Shown here: piece by piece, positions 7,546 through 52,700 of the stretch
Position numbering within the stretch: the first letter of the stretch is position 1
How the letters are laid out: each line of letters starts with the position of its first letter
Source: Siphonodentalium dalli
Taxonomy: Eukaryota; Mollusca; Scaphopoda; Gadilida; Siphonodentaliidae
Direction of reading: 5' to 3'
Length of the DNA: 64,000 bases
Assembly: GCA_032622095.1 (NCBI GenBank)
Contig: CP136067.1
Coordinates: 80,502,705 to 80,566,704, forward strand
The notes under the pieces: generated by a model
What the model saw: the letters and a program-made list of their open reading frames with translations, nothing else
Told to the model about the DNA's origin: nothing
The model's database searches: none
Translations under genes and position numbers: made by a program

Positions 7546-8039
7546 TACGTATGACCTTATTTCTCATTACATATTCACACCAAGCAGCCCACACAATTGC
7601 TATGTTTCCATGCGATTTAATGTCATTACGTGTGACCTAATATCTCAATAATCTGAGGCAAGAGTACGCCTGCTAAAGGCGAATTATAACAGTGGGGCTA
7701 TAACGCTCAATGAATACTGGAGGCTATAACAAACTGCGCAGCAGAATATCGCTGACTAGACGAGTATGAGATGAGCCTAACTGCAATTGTGACTTTGTTT
7801 AAAGGCCCACTTAATTTTCGAGTCATTGATTTTTGTTATAGTATATACGGTTTTAATAACAATTTATGCCATAAAATTTGAATAAAATACTATAATTCAT
7901 CACCATTTGAAACGCAGAATAATTATATCTCCTAATTTGAAACACCTTTAAAAAACCGCGACAAGTCGTGCGTCGTATATCTAGCAATTAGCAACTAAAA
8001 TGTCCTCTTCGGTTTTCCATAGATTTCAACGTAATTTGA

Positions 8040-8602
8040 TTCTTTAGGGGTATTTGTGTCCGGGAAGTGTTTTGGACGTGTCAAATCGTGACCCCGACCT
8101 GATCTTGACCTTTAAAACTGTCAATACAAGGTCAATTTGGGTAAAACGGACGAATTTCGGCGAAATTTGATACCTAGGGATACTTTTGTATCGGGTAAAA
8201 TTTGTTTTGAACGGGTAAAATCGTGACCTCGGCGTAACCTTGACCTTCAATGTGGTCAATCAAAGGTCAAATCGGGTAAAACGGATGGATTTCGACGAAA
8301 TTTGATACCTATGGGTACTTTTGTCGGGGGAGTGTTTTGGACGGGTCAAATTATGACTCCGACCTTACCTTGGCCTTCAAAATTGTTAATTAAAGGTCAA
8401 GTGGGGTAACACGGACGGATTTCGACGAAATTTGATACCTATAGGGGTATTTTTCTCGGGGCGGGGGTGTTTTGGACGGGTCAAATCATGACCCTGACAT
8501 GAACTTGACTTTCGAAATAGTCAATTCAAGGTCAAATCGCGCCTTTCGCCGGAAATCAGATGGGAAACAGCCCGGACGAAGTCGGGCCCATCAGCTTGTG
8601 TA
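8040..8602 (+). mobile_element. degraded non-autonomous Helitron with tandem core (TGACCTTGACCTT family)
   Basis: Four units of about 130-140 bp carry 'gttttggacgggtcaaat', 'gaccttgaccttcaaa', 'ttcaaggtcaaatcgggtaa' and 'gatttcgacgaaatttgata'. The block ends with the GC hairpin 'cccggacgaagtcggg' and then 'cccatcagcttg'. The element at 36,805-37,542 has the same units and hairpin but an intact CTAG end. This copy lacks a recognisable 5' TC end and its 3' end has decayed. Confidence 0.65.
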
Positions 8603-22285: not shown

Positions 22286-24000
22286 CACATGTACCCACGC
22301 AGTGTTCCTGTGTCGTCCCTTCTATATTGTTGTTCTACATTTATATGGTGTCCATTCACCTTTGTGTGATGTGCAAATCATTTATGACTATATAGGGTGT
22401 CCACCTGGTGAGTACTGTTCTTTATATGGTGTGCATTCATCTTTACATATTGTCCATTTACCTTTATATGGTGTGTTTTACCTGTATATGGTGTCCGTTC
22501 ACCATCAATATGATGTCATCTTTTATCTATATGATATGCATACGTCTTTGTATGATGTGGTTCCACCTTTATATGGTGTCCATTCATCTTTATATGATTT
22601 TAAATTGTTGTCATGTGGTGTGGAAATGTATTTATATGGCTTGAAAATATATTTATATGATGTCAATTCACCATCATGATGCTATACCATATCATACAGA
22701 CATATACTCAGCATATAAAATCGTATGCACATCATGTAAAGTCGTATACACATCAGATCAAGTTCTATGTTCATCATACAAAGAACAGCGGCCATCATCA
22801 TAAATGGTTACCATATACAGATAAAGGTAAATGGACACCATATAAACTTATAAAGGTAAATGGACACCATATAAAGGTAAAAACCACGTTATATATATGT
22901 AAATCCACACAATATAAAGGTAAATATACACCATAATAAAGGTGAATGGACACAATATAAGGTAAATGTACAAACAAGAAAGATGAATGAAAACTACATA
23001 CAGGTGAATAGACACCATATAAAGGTGATGATTGGGAACCATATAAAGGTAAAACACTCCATGTAAATGTGAATTGAGTCCATACAAAGGAAACATCACA
23101 TAATGGACACCATATACAGGTGAATTGACATCACATAAAGACATTTGCACACCTTATAAAGGTGAATGGACATCACATAAAAACATTTGCACACCATATA
23201 AAGGTAAATTGACTCCATATAGCGGTGAATCGGCCCTATAGAAAGGTGAATAGACACCATATAAAGACATCTGCACACAATATAAAGGTGAATGGACACC
23301 ACGTGAAGACATTCGCATACCATATACAGGTAAATGACCACCATATAAAGACATTTACACACCATATGAAGGTTAATGGACACCATATAAAGATATCTGC
23401 ACACCATAAAAAGGTGAATTGGCACCATATACAGATATTTGCACATCATGTACAGGTGAATAGACACAGTATAAAGACATTTTCACAGCATATAAGGGTG
23501 AATGGCCAGCATACAAATATGCATGGACACCATATAAATGTGAATTAAAACCACATAAAGGTGAATGGACAACATAGAAAGGCACATGAATACCATATAA
23601 AGGTGAATTGACACCATATATCGGTGAATTGGCCCTATAGAAAGGTGAATGGACACGATATAAAGACATATGCACACCATATAAAGGTGAATGGGCAGCA
23701 TGTAAATGTGAATGGAAACCATATAAAGGTGAATGGACACCATATAAAGACATTTGCACACCATATAAAGGTGAATGGCAGCATATAATTATGAATGGAC
23801 ACCATATAAAGGTGAATTGTCACCACATAAACGACATTTTCTTACCATATAAAGGATACTGAATGCCATATAAATGTGTATGGACACCATATAAAGATGA
23901 ATGGACACCACATAACGACAAATGTACACCATAAAGAGGTGAATGAATGCTATATACAGTTGAATGGACACCATATAAAGGTGGAAGGATATTATGGACG
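22286..24000. repeat. 21-bp minisatellite that switches orientation near 22,680
   Basis: Units resemble 'tatatggtgtccattcacctt' minus one base. To about 22,680 they run in this orientation; from about 22,690 to 24,000 they appear as the reverse complement ('aaggtgaatggacaccatat'). Many units are paired with 'aaagacatttgcacac' variants, giving a 42-bp sub-pattern. The frames repeating MVSIHLY every seven residues are this 21-bp period read through, not proteins. It forms the core of the palindrome. Confidence 0.9.
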
Positions 24001-33105: not shown

Positions 33106-33315
33106 TCTCATATATATTTTGAAGACCTCTGTCTGTTTGTTTGTCTGTCTGTCTGTCTGTATGTTTGTCTGTATGTTTGTCATTAATACAAATCTACGAT
33201 TCTCGACCGATCGGGACGAAACTTGGTACGTGTGTGTAGTTTGACCAGGCGGTGGACGTTGTCGTATTGACGAGCCCGGATGAATAGCCCGGACAACGTC
33301 GGGCTCATCGGCTAG
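33106..33315 (+). mobile_element. Helitron unit 1 of array (210 bp, no core)
   Basis: It has the TC head, the microsatellite and the 'tctacgattctcgaccgatc' block, then joins directly to the 3' tail with hairpin GCCCGGACAACGTCGGGC and CTAG. The 122-bp core repeats are absent, which makes it the minimal unit. Confidence 0.75.
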
Positions 33316-33891
33316 TCTCATATATATATTTTGAAGACCTCTGTCTGTTTGTTTGTATGTTTGTCTGTATGTTTGTATGTTTGTCATTTATACAAATCTA
33401 CGATTCTCGACCGATCGGGACCAAACTTGGTACGTGTGTGTAGTTTGACCAGGCGGTGGACGTTGTCGTATTGGCGAGTCAGTGCGGCGCCCGCTTCGCG
33501 CATGCGCAGACGAGATCTCGGAAACGGGTGGAGCTATCGACTTGAAATTTGGTATGTGAATGTATCTTGCCCCGGATACGAATTTTATCGGGTCGCCGAG
33601 CCCGTGCGACGCCAGCTTCGCGCATGCGCAGACGAGATCTCGGAAACGGGTGGAGCTATCGACTTGAAATTTGGTATGTGAATGTATCTTGCCCCGGATA
33701 CGAATTTTATCGGGTCGCCGAGCCCGTGCGACGCCAGCTTCGCGCATGCGCAGACCAGATCTAGGAAACGGGTACAGCTATCGACTTGAAATTTGGTTTT
33801 TGAATAGCCCGGACAACGTCGGGCTGGGTAGAGCTATCGACTTGAAAATTGTTTTTTGAATAGCCCGGACAACGTCGGGCTCATCGGCTAG
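33316..33891 (+). mobile_element. Helitron unit 2 of array (576 bp, three core copies)
   Basis: It has the head, then core copies whose 'cgcgcatgcg' marks fall at 33,497, 33,619 and 33,741, exactly 122 bp apart. The 3' tail is partly duplicated: a hairpin, a short core fragment and a second hairpin precede CTAG. Confidence 0.75.
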
Positions 33892-34276
33892 TATCATATA
33901 TATTTTGAAGACCTCTGTCTGTATGTTTGTTTGTTTGTCTGTCTGTCTGTCTGTCTGTCATTTATACAAATCTACGATTCTCGACCGATCGGGACGAAAC
34001 TTGGTACGTGTGTGTAGTTTGACCAGGCGGTGAACGTTGTCGTATTGGCGAGCCCGTGCGGCGCCCGCTTCGCGCATGCGCAGACGAGATCTCGGAAACG
34101 GGTGGAGCTATCGACTTGAAATTTGCTATGTGGATGTATCTTGCCCCGGATGCGAATTTTATCGGATCGCCGAGCCCGTGCGACGCCAGCTTCGCGCATG
34201 CGCAGACGATATCTCGGAAACTGGTGGAGCTATCGACTTGAAATTTGGTATGTGAATGTATCTTGCCCCGGATACG
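33714..34276 (+). repeat. 563-bp segment with an inverted copy at 35,174-35,736
   Basis: Positions pair with a constant sum of 69,450 at both ends, so the two copies have the same length. Every stretch compared by eye was identical, including rare variants ('gatctaggaaacgggtacag') and the microsatellite length. Confidence 0.8.
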
Positions 34277-34788
34277 AATTTTATCGGGTTGCCGAGCCCG
34301 TGCGACGCCAGCTTCGCGCATGCGCAGACGAGATCTCGGAAACGGGTGGAGCTATCGACTTGAAATTTGCTATGTGGATGTATCTTGCCCCGGATGCGAA
34401 TTTTATCGGATCGCCGAGCCCGTGCGACGCCAGCTTCGCGCATGCGCAGACGATATCTCGGAAACTGGTGGAGCTATCGACTTGAAATTTGGTATGTGAA
34501 TGTATCTTGCCCCGGATACGAATTTTATCGGGTTGCCGAGCCCGTGCGACGCCAGCTTCGCGCATGCGCAGACGAGATCTCGGAAACGGGTGGAGCTATC
34601 GACTTGAAATTTGGTATACGAATGCATCTTGCCCCGGATACGAATTTTATCGGGTCGCCGAGCCCGTGCGACGCCAGCTTCGCGCATGCGCAGACCAGAT
34701 ATCGGAAACGGGTAGAGCTATCGACTTGAAATTTGGTTTTTGAATAGCCCGGATGAATAGCCCGGACAACGTCGGGCTCATCGGCTAG
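33892..34788 (+). mobile_element. Helitron unit 3 of array (897 bp, six core copies)
   Basis: Core marks lie at 34,071, 34,193, 34,315, 34,437, 34,559 and 34,681, exactly 122 bp apart. Two variant units alternate ('gacgagatctcggaaacggg' and 'gacgatatctcggaaactgg'), giving a 244-bp higher-order unit present about twice. The head reads TATCATATAT instead of TCTCATATAT. Confidence 0.75.
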
Positions 34789-35742
34789 TCTCATATATAT
34801 TTTGAAGACCTCTGTCTGTATGTTTGTCTGTATGTTTGTATGTTTGTCATTTATACAAATCTACGATTCTCGACCGATCGGGACGAAACTTGGTACGTGT
34901 GTGTAGTTTGACCAGGCGGTGGACGTTGTCGTATTGGCGAGCCCGTGCGGCGCCAGCTTCGCGCATGCGCAGACGAGATCTCGGAAACGGGTGGAGCTAT
35001 TGACTTGAAATTTGGTATGTGAATGTATCTTGCCCCGGATACGAATTTTATCGGGTCGCCGAGCGCGTGCGACGCCAGCTTCGCGCATGCGCAGACCAGA
35101 TCTCGGAAACGGGTGGAGCTATCGACTTGAAATTTGGTATGTGAATGTATCTTGCCCCGGATATGAATTTTATCGTATCCGGGGCAAGATACATTCACAT
35201 ACCAAATTTCAAGTCGATAGCTCCACCAGTTTCCGAGATATCGTCTGCGCATGCGCGAAGCTGGCGTCGCACGGGCTCGGCGATCCGATAAAATTCGCAT
35301 CCGGGGCAAGATACATCCACATAGCAAATTTCAAGTCGATAGCTCCACCCGTTTCCGAGATCTCGTCTGCGCATGCGCGAAGCGGGCGCCGCACGGGCTC
35401 GCCAATACGACAACGTTCACCGCCTGGTCAAACTACACACACGTACCAAGTTTCGTCCCGATCGGTCGAGAATCGTAGATTTGTATAAATGACAGACAGA
35501 CAGACAGACAGACAAACAAACAAACATACAGACAGAGGTCTTCAAAATATATATGATACTAGCCGATGAGCCCGACGTTGTCCGGGCTATTCAAAAAACA
35601 ATTTTCAAGTCGATAGCTCTACCCAGCCCGACGTTGTCCGGGCTATTCAAAAACCAAATTTCAAGTCGATAGCTGTACCCGTTTCCTAGATCTGGTCTGC
35701 GCATGCGCGAAGCTGGCGTCGCACGGGCTCGGCGACGGCTAG
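34789..35742 (+). mobile_element. Helitron unit 4 of array, rearranged by an inverted segment
   Basis: It begins with a normal head and two core copies. At 35,174 it switches into a 563-bp block that is the reverse complement of 33,714-34,276, spanning the end of unit 2 and the start of unit 3. It then ends with 'gacggctag', so its own hairpin is missing. Confidence 0.75.
35174..35736 (-). repeat. 563-bp inverted copy of 33,714-34,276
   Basis: This is the partner of the segment above. The left junction is a short palindrome, 'cggatatgaattttatcg' meeting 'tatccggggcaagatac'. It is either a very recent rearrangement or an assembly artefact. Confidence 0.8.
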
Positions 35743-36254
35743 TCTCATATATATTTTGAAGACCTCTGTCTGTATGTTTGTATGTTTGTCTGTATGTTTG
35801 TATGTTTGTCATTTATACAAATCTACGATTCTCGACCGATCGGGACGAAACTTGGTACGTGTGTGTAGTTTGACCAGGCGGTGGACGTTGTCGTATTGGC
35901 GAGCCCGTGCGGCGCCCGCTTCGCGCATGCGCAGACGAGATCTCGGAAACTGGTGGAGCTATCGACTTCAAATTTGCTATGTGAATGTATCTTGCCCCGG
36001 ATACGAATTTTATCGGGTCGCCGAGCGCGTGCGACGCCAGCTTCGCGCATGCGCAGACCAGATCTCGGAAACGGGTGGAGCTATCGACTTGAAATTTGGT
36101 ATGTGAATGTATCTTGCCCCGGATATGAATTTTATCGGGTCGCCGAGCGACGCCAGCTTCGCGCATGCGCAGACCAGATCTCGGAAACGGGTAGAGCTAT
36201 CGACTTGAAATTTGGTTTTTGAATAGCCCGGACAACGTCGGGCTCATCGGCTAG
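35743..36254 (+). mobile_element. Helitron unit 5 of array (512 bp)
   Basis: Head, microsatellite, three core copies (the last slightly shortened in 'gtcgccgagcgacgcc'), the hairpin GCCCGGACAACGTCGGGC and CTAG. Confidence 0.75.
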
Positions 36255-36804
36255 TCTCATATATATTTTGAAGACCTCTGTCTGTTTGTTTGTATGTTTG
36301 TATGTATGTTTGTCATTTATACAAATCTACGATTCTCGACCGATCGGGACCAAACTTGGTACGTGTGTGTAGTTTGACCAGGCGGTGGACGTTGTCGTAT
36401 TGGCGAGCCCGTGCGGCGCCCGCTTCGCGCATGCGCAGACGAGATCTCGGAAACGGGTGGAGCTATCGACTTGAAATTTGGTATGAGAATGTATCTTGCC
36501 CCGGATACGAATTTTATCGGGTCGCCGAGCCCGTGCGACGCCAGCTTCGCGCATGCGCAGACGAGATCTCGGAAACGGGTGGACCAAAAAAAGCGGGTAA
36601 AATTTAAAAAAGCACAATTAACTCATTGAAAAACAAAATAATTAACTCATTGAAAAACAAAATTAAATTAAAATTGTCATGTTTCTGACTATTGCCGAAA
36701 TTTGCTGCAAATTTATGCAGCACAAGTGTCTCGGAACCTGTTGCAATTGCTTTTTCGAACAAAGCCATGGGACGAATGCCGCCAGTGGCGGGCTAACCTG
36801 CTAG
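36255..36804 (+). mobile_element. Helitron unit 6 of array, with a different 3' end
   Basis: The head and core match units 1-5. After 'aaacgggtggacc' (near 36,580) the sequence changes to unrelated AT-rich DNA. The unit ends with another hairpin, CCGCCAGTGGCGG, nine bases and CTAG. This is an exchange of 3' ends between Helitron subfamilies. Confidence 0.7.
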
Positions 36805-37542
36805 TCTATTATATATTTTGGAAGATCTGTGTGTGTGTGTGTGTGTGTGTCTGTCTGTAATCGATGGACTCAAAAACGGCCGAGCCGATTTCGATGAAAC
36901 TTGGTATGTGTTGGTATTTTCGGCTGGGGAGTGACATGGGCCTATTAATTTACCCGTGCGACGTGACCTTGACCTTGAAATCGGGTAATTTCAAGGTCAA
37001 ACGCCCGAATATCACGGGATTTAGATGAAACTTGGTATGTGGGGTTACTTTCGTATGGGGAGTCTCATAAGCATATTAATTTGCCCGTGCGACGTGACCT
37101 TGAAATCGGGTCATTTCAATGTCAAACGCCCGAATATCGCGGGATTTCGATGAAACTTGGTATGTGGGGGTACTTTCGTATGGGGAGTCTCATAAGCATA
37201 TTCATTTGCCTGTGCGACGTGACCTTGACCTTGTAATAGGGTCAATTCAAGGTCAAATCCCCAATTTTGATGGTATTTCGACGAAATTTTATACATAGGG
37301 TTACTTTTGTCCACTGGGTGTTTTGGACGGGTCAAATCGTGACCCCGACCTGACCTTGACCTTCAAAATGATCAATTCAAGGTCAAATCGGGTGAAACCG
37401 GATGGATTTAGACGGGTACTTTTGTCGGGTACTTTTGTTCGGGCAGTGTTTTGGACGGGTCAAATCGTGACCCCACTTGACCTTGGCCTTCAAAATAGAC
37501 AATTCAAGGTCAAAGCCCGGACGAAGTCGGGTCACCTTCTAG
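36805..37542 (+). mobile_element. Helitron unit 7 of array (738 bp, TGACCTTGACCTT family)
   Basis: It starts TCTATTATATATTTTGGAAG with a (tg)n/(tctg) microsatellite, then core units of about 120-130 bp with 'tttcgatgaaacttggtatg' and 'gacgtgaccttgaccttg'. It ends in hairpin CCCGGACGAAGTCGGG, 'tcacctt' and CTAG|T. It is the same family as the decayed copy at 8,040-8,602. Confidence 0.75.
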
Positions 37543-44734: not shown

Positions 44735-45640
44735 ATGGAGATTTGGGGGTATATAGTGGAGCCCTCCGTCCGTCCGTCCTTCCTTCCGTCCTTCCGTCCG
44801 TACGAACGTTTCAACTCATAACTTTGGTTTCGCTAACTCAATTCAGTTGATCTTTGGTATGCTAATAGACCAGCCGGGGGGACAAGATTTCCCCATAACT
44901 GCGGTTTCGTCCGCCCATTTTTTCCAGAGTTACGCCCCTTTTTGGACTTAGAAAATTGTCGACCCATACGAACGTTTCAACTCATAACTTTGGTTTCGCT
45001 AACTCAATTCAGTTGATCTTTGGTATGCTAATAGACCAGCCGGGGGACAAGATTTCCCCTTAACTGCGGTTTCGTCCGCCCATTTTTTCCAGAGTTACGC
45101 CCCTTTTTGGACTTAGAAAATTGTCCGTACGAACGTTTCAACTCATAACTTTGGTTTCGCTAACTCAATTCAGTTGATCTTTGGTATGCTAATAGACGAG
45201 CCGGGGGGACAAGATTTCCCCATAACTGCGGTTTCGTCCGCCCATTTTTCCAGAGTTACGCCCCTTTTTGGACTTAGAAAATTCAGTTTTCTGTGGCATA
45301 CGAACGTTTCAACTCATAACTTTGGTTTCGCTAATTCAATTCAGTTGATATTTGGTATGCCGATAGACCAGCCGGGGGGACAAGATTTCCCCATAGCCGT
45401 GGTTTCGTCCGCCCATTTTTTCCAGAGTTACGCCCCTTTTTGGACTTAGAAAATTCAGGTTTTCTGCTACTTTTTTGGGTTTCCAGATGATAACTTGATT
45501 TTGGATCGTTTACTCATGAATAACATAACTTTACAAAGTGCCATTTAATAAGCATTTGCACAAAAATAAGAAAAATCCTCTCTGATTGTACAGTCGGGGG
45601 CGTTACCTCCGCCCAGCGGTGCACTTGTTAATTTATTTTC
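44735..45640 (+). repeat. tandem repeat, four units of about 170-185 bp ('atctttggtatgctaatag')
   Basis: The head 'gatctccgatggagatttgg' is followed by a tccgtcc microsatellite. Four close units then carry 'aacgtttcaactcataactt', 'tcaattcagttgatctttgg', 'cagccggggggacaagattt' and 'agagttacgccccttttt'. The tail is 'gtcgggggcgttacctccgc'. Units differ at few positions, so expansion was recent. This repeat type is common in bivalves. Confidence 0.8.
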
Positions 45641-49769: not shown

Positions 49770-52700
49770 CTGGAAAAAAGACAAGAGAAGTATGTTTCGG
49801 TCATTACTCAAGATTCTTTTAAAGGTTAACAGTCATGCAAAAAAGTAACAAGGTTAGAAAAGTAAGCCTATCTGCATCATGATAGCATGTCAGATTTATT
49901 CTCACAAGTAATACATTTTATTATATGCTTGCCCATAAAATAGCGGGAAATTACCGAAAAGTAGATCGTTGTATTTATCTCTTAGAAGCCACAGTGAAAT
50001 AGGATGTCGTTATTTCACTCTAGATAGCATTATTTCACTTTAGCTTATCAACATCCAATTATCGATAGATCATGCAAGTATCATCAGCAAGTGAGCGTTT
50101 TTGATTGGATAGCCGCAACTGATCATGCAGCATGCAGATGTGACCAGGCCGTGACATGGGATTTTTTATATTTTGACTGTGGTGACACGGAGACTTGTTA
50201 GTTTCAATTCCGTATTTCATTTGTCTTGTTGATTTATCTAGGTAATTGTGCACTTATGATTAGTAGGAAGTATTCTTCCTAGTATTGTTCAAATTGCTGT
50301 ACTATTAAAAGTAACGAGAGGCCGATCACGATCGGCAGATGTTTAACCCATCCCTTGGCGATAGTAAATTGTTAAGATCAGAATCATAATCTTTTAATGT
50401 TGAATTATAGAGTATACTGTTATGATCTAAAGTAGTATATGACAAATGTACATAATAACCAGTAATAACACAAATTATTGGAATGTATGAGTCAATATAG
50501 AAGGGTTAATATAACATCTAAACTCTAGAGCCTGTCACCACTATCATAGTGTGAGCAGTTCTATTCATGTTGTTGCAAATTGCCATGTGAGATATCAAAA
50601 TAATATAATTATTTATTTAATGGAAAAGGTTAAAAGACATGGAATGGGTAAAAGGGGTTAAATCACCTATCTCTGCCCTGTTTGATCCAATGTAGTCCCA
50701 TCATCCAAGGACTTAGAGAGCTCCATTGGTCTAGTTAAATAAATTCACCTGGCTAAGTTGTGGTTAAAAAGATAGCTAAATCAATTTATCCAATAATTCA
50801 CTGTGTCTCTTATACAGACCTAACATATGAGGGCTATAAATAACTCTCAAAGCAATAAACTATATTGTCTTTTATCTTGCTCACAGAGAAGCAGGTATTC
50901 ATTAATTGTAAGTTACTTGGGTTATAATCTGGATAATTCTTAGTTTAAAAAGGGCCATATCTCTGGTATAACAAATTGGATCTAACCCATATTCAAACTC
51001 GTTCTGTATTTTGAGTTGAGAAACTCACATACCAAATTTGGTTCCTATCAGATGAAAAATGGTTGATTTATCGAAGTACATGTATGTGTGAATCATATGT
51101 CAAAGGACCATAACACCATTAAAAAAAATCCGATCAAACCCATATTCGAAATCAATCTGTATGTTGGTCTGAGAAACTCATACACCAAATTTGGTTCCAA
51201 TCAGATAAAAAATGTTTGAGTTATGGCAGAATTAATGAATTCTAAGTCGAAAAAGGGCCATAACTCCGTAAAAAAAACTCCGATCAAACCCATATTCGAA
51301 CTCGATCTGTATTTTGGGTCGAGAAACTCACATACCAAATTTGGTTCCGATCAGATAAAAAATGTTTGAGTTACGGCAGAATTAATTAATTCTAAGTCGA
51401 AAAAGGGCCATAACTCCGTAATAAAAAGTCGGATCAAACCCATATTCGAACTCGATCTGTATTTTGGGCCGAGAAACTCACATACCAAATTTGGTTCCGA
51501 TCAGATAAAAAATGTTTGAGTTATGGCAGAATGCGTGAATTCTAAGTCGAAAAAGGGCCATAACTCTGTCAAAAAAAGTCGGATCAAACCCATATTCGAA
51601 CTCGATCTGTATTTTGGGCTGGTTTTGATCAGGTAAAAAATGTTTGAGTTATCGCATTACACGTAAAGTGTCTACGGACGGACAGACAGACAGACGGACG
51701 GACAGACGGACGGACGGACGCACGACGAGTGGTCAATCCGGACAACGACACTATGTTTACCATACATGGTATGGGTAAACATAAAAATGACGCATAACTT
51801 AGCAACTTTGAGCTTTAATAATGTGCATATAATAAAAACAATACCTACAGTTTTTTGTTTGAATACCTGAAACATCTCATTCGTGTCTGGAAAGAAATAT
51901 CGAATTTTCACTCGTGGCTGCCACTCGTGAAAATTTGATATTTCTCTCCAGACACTAATGAGATATTTTGGTATTCAAACAACAACTGTAGGTATTCTCT
52001 ATGTATATTGTTTGTTGGAGTAAGGTATATTGTGTTCTGATTTCGCTCAGTTCTAATTCCTGAAATGAATTTCTCACATCGCCACCATGTGAGGTGTCAG
52101 AAAAGGAAAATTGTAATATTTTAGCTAATAACAGCATTGTGCACCAGGGTAATTAATCATTGTGCATAGCATCATACCATTACTAAGTTAGAAGTTGAAT
52201 CACGAAGAAGGAACAGTTGCAGCTGAAACACAATTACCAATAAAGGGATGAAATATACTCACGTAATGTTATTCAAGTCTAAAGACTCTTTTATGGATTT
52301 GAGACTCTCCTGCAATGATTTGCACTCAAAAGAATTGAATTCAGCAGTCGAGAATGTCTGTAACAGAGTATAGCATGCAATAAATATACTGTTGACCACA
52401 GTAAATTTCAAAACAAGGTTAAGTTACCCACTAAATGATCACACCAAGCCAACACAGTTCACGTTTGATACAGGGTCAAATAGTTTCTTCATATGATTTT
52501 GGTGTGAACACTATTTAATATTCGCAAAAAAGACATGAATTTACAAGATGTATGTGATATAATATGGAAGAAGTCTGTTCAATAAGCCGGGGAAAATTTT
52601 AATTACTGTACATTTTTTATAGAAACACGCATGGAATTGAGATCGAAAAGACCCGTTTCCCAGTTCAGATTTACAATTCATTACTATAATTGGTAACTAT

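Follow-up and report, generated by a model that had tools for sequence, protein, structure and literature searches.

A row of seven Helitron-like units, all lying head to tail in one direction, occupies positions 33106-37542 of a 64,000-nucleotide stretch of the genome of the scaphopod Siphonodentalium dalli (assembly GCA_032622095.1, contig CP136067.1, positions 80,502,705 to 80,566,704 of the forward strand; hereafter, the window). We consider that the row probably, though far from certainly, arose by stepwise accretion at a 5' junction, followed by local rearrangement. Judged by sequence likeness, it combines DNA from at least three sources, namely the Helitron families A and B and the tail of the sixth unit (U6). 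All results are drawn from one assembled sequence. An initial annotation of this DNA had listed the seven head-to-tail units, with lengths from 210 to 954 bp, and its coordinates, lengths, and junction calls agree with our sequence reading and script. It overlooked that the units are not alike: U7 belongs to another family, U6 carries an unlike tail, U4 has lost its family hairpin, and U1 is devoid of the 122-bp repeat. The features of the row are given below, with a slash marking the boundary of a target or junction.

33105, plus strand: host A, left half of the A/T target (sequence reading and script)
33106-33315, plus strand: U1, family A, 210 bp, TC...hairpin...CTAG, no 122-bp core repeat
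33316-33891, plus strand: U2, family A, 576 bp, three core-repeat anchors, tail duplicated over 56 bp, with the hairpin in two copies
33714-34277, plus strand: source of the inverted copy, end of U2 and start of U3 (exact equality)
33892-34788, plus strand: U3, family A, 897 bp, 5' end TA and not TC, six core-repeat anchors, 13-bp tail duplication
34789-35742, plus strand: U4, family A, 954 bp, two core-repeat anchors on the plus strand, 3' part mostly inverted array DNA
35173-35736, minus strand: 564-nt inverted copy of 33714-34277 (exact equality)
35743-36254, plus strand: U5, family A, 512 bp, three core-repeat anchors, plain tail
36255-36804, plus strand: U6, chimera, 550 bp, head and core of family A up to 36583, followed by 221 nt of tail from another source
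36584-36804, plus strand: unlike tail of U6, ending with a weak 5-bp hairpin and CTAG (blastn, fold)
36805-37542, plus strand: U7, Helitron-like, other family (B), 738 bp, TC...CTAG
37543, plus strand: host T, right half of the A/T target (sequence reading and script)

The unit ends are those of canonical non-autonomous Helitrons (5' TC and 3' CTRR), a class whose mobility depends on the RepHel protein of an autonomous partner. The script found CTAG at the 3' end of 7/7 units and TC at the 5' end of 6/7, U3 starting with TA. Each of the six inner junctions is a CTAG that runs without any intervening base into the T of the next unit (five TC, one TA), and the row as a whole has A to the left of U1 and T to the right of U7, as the initial annotation had stated. 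Canonical Helitrons insert between A and T without target duplication; here such host flanks belong to the row as a whole, the inner units having none of their own. The flanks beyond these adjacent bases are T- and AT-rich, and the 20 nt to the left of U1 did not resemble the unit tails when compared by eye. The first 30 nt are identical in U1, U4, U5, and U6, with U3 deviating by its TA start and U2 by a 2-nt AT insertion, and the last 34 nt are identical in U1, U2, U3, and U5 (4/7 units). Because heads and tails are shared in this way, chance can be ruled out as the origin of the row.

Helitrons are expected to carry a palindrome approximately 11 nt before the 3' end. Here, the 34-nt tail common to U1, U2, U3, and U5 contains a hairpin with a 6-bp stem that ends 6 nt before CTAG, and in U4 the hairpin scan detected a different hairpin, 1 nt before its CTAG. 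The scan missed the ends of U6 and U7, whose hairpins are weak. Among the four units that were folded, the z-score was -2.51 for U1, -2.01 for U5, -1.17 for U7, and -0.25 for U6, the last being no better than shuffled sequences. Eight scattered candidates for a hairpin with a CTRR-T end were found in the window besides the array, some with longer stems (up to 12 bp). Membership in the Helentron/HINE group was also considered and was rejected on the subterminal inverted repeats of 11-15 bp expected at both ends: in the six units compared (U4 left out), exact inverted matches between the first 60 and the last 90 nt reached 5-7 nt at most, no better than in shuffles. Elements of that group also insert into T-rich sequence next to T, and here the row has A and T as its adjacent bases within flanks that are T- and AT-rich.

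U1-U6 begin with the common head TCTCATATATATTTTGAAGACCTCTGTCTG, apart from the deviations of U2 and U3 noted above. The head is followed by a TCTG/TATG/TTTG microsatellite of 29 to 45 nt, by about 100 nt of further common sequence and, in U2-U6, by copies of a 122-bp repeat. The number of plus-strand repeat anchors is 0 in U1, 3 in U2, 6 in U3, 2 in U4, 3 in U5, and 2 in U6, and U3 contains a two-repeat (244-bp) higher-order unit. Judging from its sequence, U1 appears to be an internally deleted form whose tail resembles that of U3. Whole-head pairwise comparisons gave 5-15 differences of 290-300 among U2-U6; the counts for U1 (24-28 of 194-202) are inflated by its tail being aligned to core repeats and were not used. 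Within the window, the family-A head was found inside the row only, with up to 3 substitutions and no indels allowed. Searches for the head in viral and genome contigs, and for the family-A tail in viral contigs, gave 0 matches in collections that are not expected to hold the source organism.

The last two units depart from this pattern. The 221-nt tail of U6 is unlike family A and has no strong second copy in the window, where the next best match covers 35 nt at 80% (E 0.038); it may represent the terminus of a third Helitron or co-captured flanking DNA. U7 contains repeats of approximately 125 bp with TGACCTTGACCTTGAA motifs. In plus-strand blastn comparisons it matched the U1-U6 head over about 50 nt at 80-85%, and U4 over 118 nt at 69%; further matches to U1-U6 were pieces of at most 28 nt, stretches of 94-95 nt at 68-70% that start in the microsatellite, and a shared hairpin stretch of 18 nt. 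U7 does not resemble U1-U6 in the core or over most of their length, and by these alignments families A and B look distantly similar. A further match to U7 lies at about 8022-8599 of the window, with 72-77% over 253-313 nt. We read this region as a family-B relative that has decayed; its repeats are about 135 bp long, it has the hairpin GCCCGGACGAAGTCGGGC, and its end reads CTTG in place of the expected CTAG.

Among U1-U6, the stretch that was compared has 20 variable columns, five of them common to subsets of units: {U2,U6} once, {U3,U5} once, and {U4,U5} three times. The count takes in U1 before column 98, U4 as far as 35175, and U6 as far as 36583, and it excludes U7 as well as the microsatellite stretch; the 2 extra nucleotides in the head of U2 were taken out, and the 30-nt left head, with one change (in U3), lies outside the 20 columns. 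The {U3,U5} and {U4,U5} groupings conflict, so that exchange between units or repeated mutation is required in any case. Five or more subset columns were obtained in 0/20,000 runs with 21 mutations, 0/20,000 with 25, and 3/20,000 with 30 in a crude star-tree simulation that used 360 sites, forced approximately two thirds of the mutations to be transitions, and included no conversion between units. A further marker, the tail string AGCCCGGATGAATAGCCCGGACAACG, is common to the non-adjacent units U1 and U3 and is absent from the intervening U2.

The row has also been rearranged in place. Positions 35173-35736 in U4 are an exact reverse complement of 33714-34277 (564/564), including the CTAG/TA junction between U2 and U3. 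That junction must predate the inverted copy, because the source segment spans it. The insert took the place of the U4 family hairpin, and U4 still ends in CGGCTAG. The copy is either recent or an assembly error. In our reading of the breakpoint alignment, the shared sequence is about 3 nt on the left and about 1 nt on the right, which fits template switching, with an assembly artefact as the alternative. In the same region, 34813-35166 and 35173-35526 form a 354-nt palindrome (95%, 6-nt spacer), for which a template switch or an assembly error may likewise be responsible.

Rolling-circle replication has previously been inferred from seamless CTAG/TC junctions. The initial annotation followed this view, arguing that independent insertions would each need an A before TC. 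The argument fails at its premise. Helitrons insert between A and T; for Helraiser the preference for AT is strong, with 46 of 1,751 insertions at other sites (PMC4778049). A host A together with the first T of a resident TC end is a normal, legal target (PMC2267711), at which insertion yields a seamless CTAG/TC joint. A Helitron 5' end carries half of its own target, and the junction is therefore ambiguous: all six show the 3'/5' joint expected of a concatemer, yet serial insertion at the resident A/T predicts the same and they are no proof of one. The outer A and T had been read as indicating one insertion, but any number of 5' insertions leaves these flanks. Repeated 5' insertion would lead to the arrangement as seen, with the A still at the far left and the oldest unit on the right.

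In the proposed order of events, a family-B element (U7) would have entered a host A/T, and its 5' end would have offered a new A/T, with the host A on one side and the first T of U7 on the other. There, in front of U7, the U6 element would have inserted, and family-A elements would have arrived in turn, the newest leftmost, each leaving CTAG/TC behind it and A/TC ahead. The units would later have been altered in place by gain or loss of core repeats and duplication of tails, and one template switch would have placed the inverted copy of the U2/U3 region in U4. The right-to-left arrival, one insertion per unit, and the template switch are what we infer; the unit anatomy, the seamless joints, the outer A and T, the several sources, and the inverted copy are shown by the sequence itself. 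Accretion is favoured because the row ends and flanks fit A/T insertion, and because the odd family, U7, occupies the rightmost place, which under 5' accretion belongs to the oldest element. It is favoured further by the unlikeness of U7 to U1-U6, by the U6 tail with no strong match in the window, by the conflicting subset variants, and by the tail string that U1 and U3 share across U2. There is also a precedent in maize, where two unlike Helitrons with a CTAG/TC junction were interpreted as having inserted one after the other (PMC2267711).

Several points weigh against accretion. Seven unguided insertions at one point are very unlikely unless the 5' junction attracts, and the evidence that it does is thin. 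In a post hoc test, the likeness of the right flank to the family-A head was suggestive, at 13 of 20, a level reached by 0.4% of plus-strand A/T sites outside the row, but its agreement with the family-B head was only 9 of 20, which 33% of those sites reach. The three variants shared by the neighbours U4 and U5 fit local duplication or conversion as well, and conversion between units could be an alternative source of the variants shared among U1-U6. In maize itself, three lines carry the left element only, which implies either insertion at G/T or excision and leaves the order on the left side unproved (PMC2267711). Moreover, exact CTAG-TC joints occur in the circles that Helraiser forms, and bypass of its 3' end is possible (PMC4778049), and tandem arrays in bats and silkworm have been attributed to bypass of the termination signal (PMC4067079). 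These last observations would suit a two-stage origin, in which U7, and perhaps U6, came first and were joined by one read-through multimer of family-A units that was later diversified by conversion and changes in repeat number. Such an origin needs few insertion events and accords with U1-U5 being of one family with the same heads and, in four of them, the same tails. The subset-shared sites and tail markers, however, misfit a star unless conversion is invoked, and hairpin and CTAG are kept in 4/5 units, unlike many plant arrays attributed to such read-through, which have multiple 5' ends and a single 3' end (Xiong et al., via PMC12628747). We hold such a two-stage origin to be unlikely, though the likeliest of the alternatives, and a multimer may cover some of U1-U5.

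Other origins appear less probable. Two or three adjoining Helitrons could have been multiplied in place if like units underwent unequal crossing over or replication slippage; the U4/U5 variants and the evident tendency of the row to rearrange (the perfect inverted copy, the higher-order unit of U3, and the 56-bp tail duplication of U2) can be cited for this. Unequal crossing over should, however, repeat order and length, and all seven lengths differ; only {U4,U5} of the three sharing pairs adjoin, and a first seamless dimer would still be required, which makes this expansion rather improbable. The row may instead have been built elsewhere and moved as one element that starts with the U1 TC and finishes with the U7 CTAG, the inner terminators being bypassed. 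The outer A and T and the 3'-end bypass demonstrated for Helraiser (PMC4778049) are compatible with such a move, but the terminators of U1, U2, U3, U5, and U6 would all have to be ignored in one pass, the confinement of the family-A head to the row gives no sign of a source within the window, and the origin of the row itself would be left unexplained; we regard it as quite improbable. Least credible is the single concatemer of the initial annotation, derived from one circular Helitron in one insertion. The seamless junctions and the outer A and T that speak for it do not discriminate, and the one template it calls for was not found, as U7 and the U6 tail are unlike the rest and 5/20 variable columns are shared by subsets. 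Copies from one circle are expected to be alike at insertion, so that these features indicate several sources and contradict a concatemer of all seven units; the description of the row as an unusually clean record of Helitron replication is accordingly unsupported.

The row is a further case in which replication and repeated insertion cannot be told apart by the junction alone. An extension of the accretion model, which we put forward tentatively and with more doubt than the model itself, is that the Helitron 5' junction (A/TC plus an AT-rich stretch) acts as a self-renewing landing site on which unrelated families pile up in order of arrival. If this were true, such rows would be readable timelines of Helitron activity. 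A mixed-family row combined with allele data would provide a test of whether Helitrons prefer Helitron 5' ends, a preference that bears on the origin of tandem Helitron arrays and of satellite-like repeats.

The remainder of the window holds further repeats. At 44765-45455, a TCCG microsatellite is followed by four copies of a 161-bp repeat, which resembles elements composed of a microsatellite and core repeats, and at 50935-51724 about 4.6 copies of a 150-bp repeat precede an ACGG microsatellite, the same layout on the opposite strand. A long degenerate 21-bp minisatellite extends over 22419-23983, with about 42 copies at 23102-23983. The segment 56001-58000 has a GC content of 0.494, compared with 0.39-0.41 in the adjoining 2-kb bins, and open frames of up to 219 aa. 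A Pfam scan of 5/32 listed open frames of the window, all outside the row and including two from this segment, matched 0 families, and Rfam gave 0 matches over the whole window at gathering scores.

Similar rows are known from maize, bats, and fungi, and the present one is a longer and more mixed example of an arrangement already described. A close likeness is to the maize Helitrons of Du et al. (2008), in which CTAG runs straight into TC (a G/T joint) between unlike elements that were read as consecutive insertions (PMC2267711). Du et al. gave two explanations for their pair, insertion at the resident A/T or insertion at G/T, and answered the opposite argument made by Pritham and Feschotte for bats (PMC2267711). 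The maize case comprised two gene-carrying elements and PCR of maize lines, whereas ours comprises seven short, repeat-bearing units known from sequence alone. The tandem Helitron arrays of Myotis lucifugus (Pritham and Feschotte 2007, via PMC2267711, PMC4067079, and PMC5876387) share the perfect head-to-tail junctions without A; they were taken as tandem Helitron repeats, whereas at least three sources are mixed here. Distantly related Helitrons directly side by side have been reported in both bat and maize (PMC4067079). For three tandem copies in Metarhizium acridum the same two explanations were offered, repeated 5' insertion or rolling-circle replication; those copies are FoHeli-like and non-canonical, in contrast to seven units with TC and CTAG ends (PMC5148889). 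The main text of a silkworm paper does not contain the words tandem or head-to-tail (PMC3789558), and in wheat tandem copies in reads were reported to have arisen from in vitro amplification (PMC13286980). In overall layout, the units are similar to oyster Cg_HINE and other Helitron/Helentron elements, with a conserved head, a microsatellite, core repeats, and a 3' palindrome (PMC7492417, PMC11136912, PMC12628747), and oyster loci with truncated, tandem, and differently oriented parts have been reported (PMC12628747). They differ from the Cg_HINE type in having TC and CTAG ends and, by the exact-match test, no subterminal inverted repeats.

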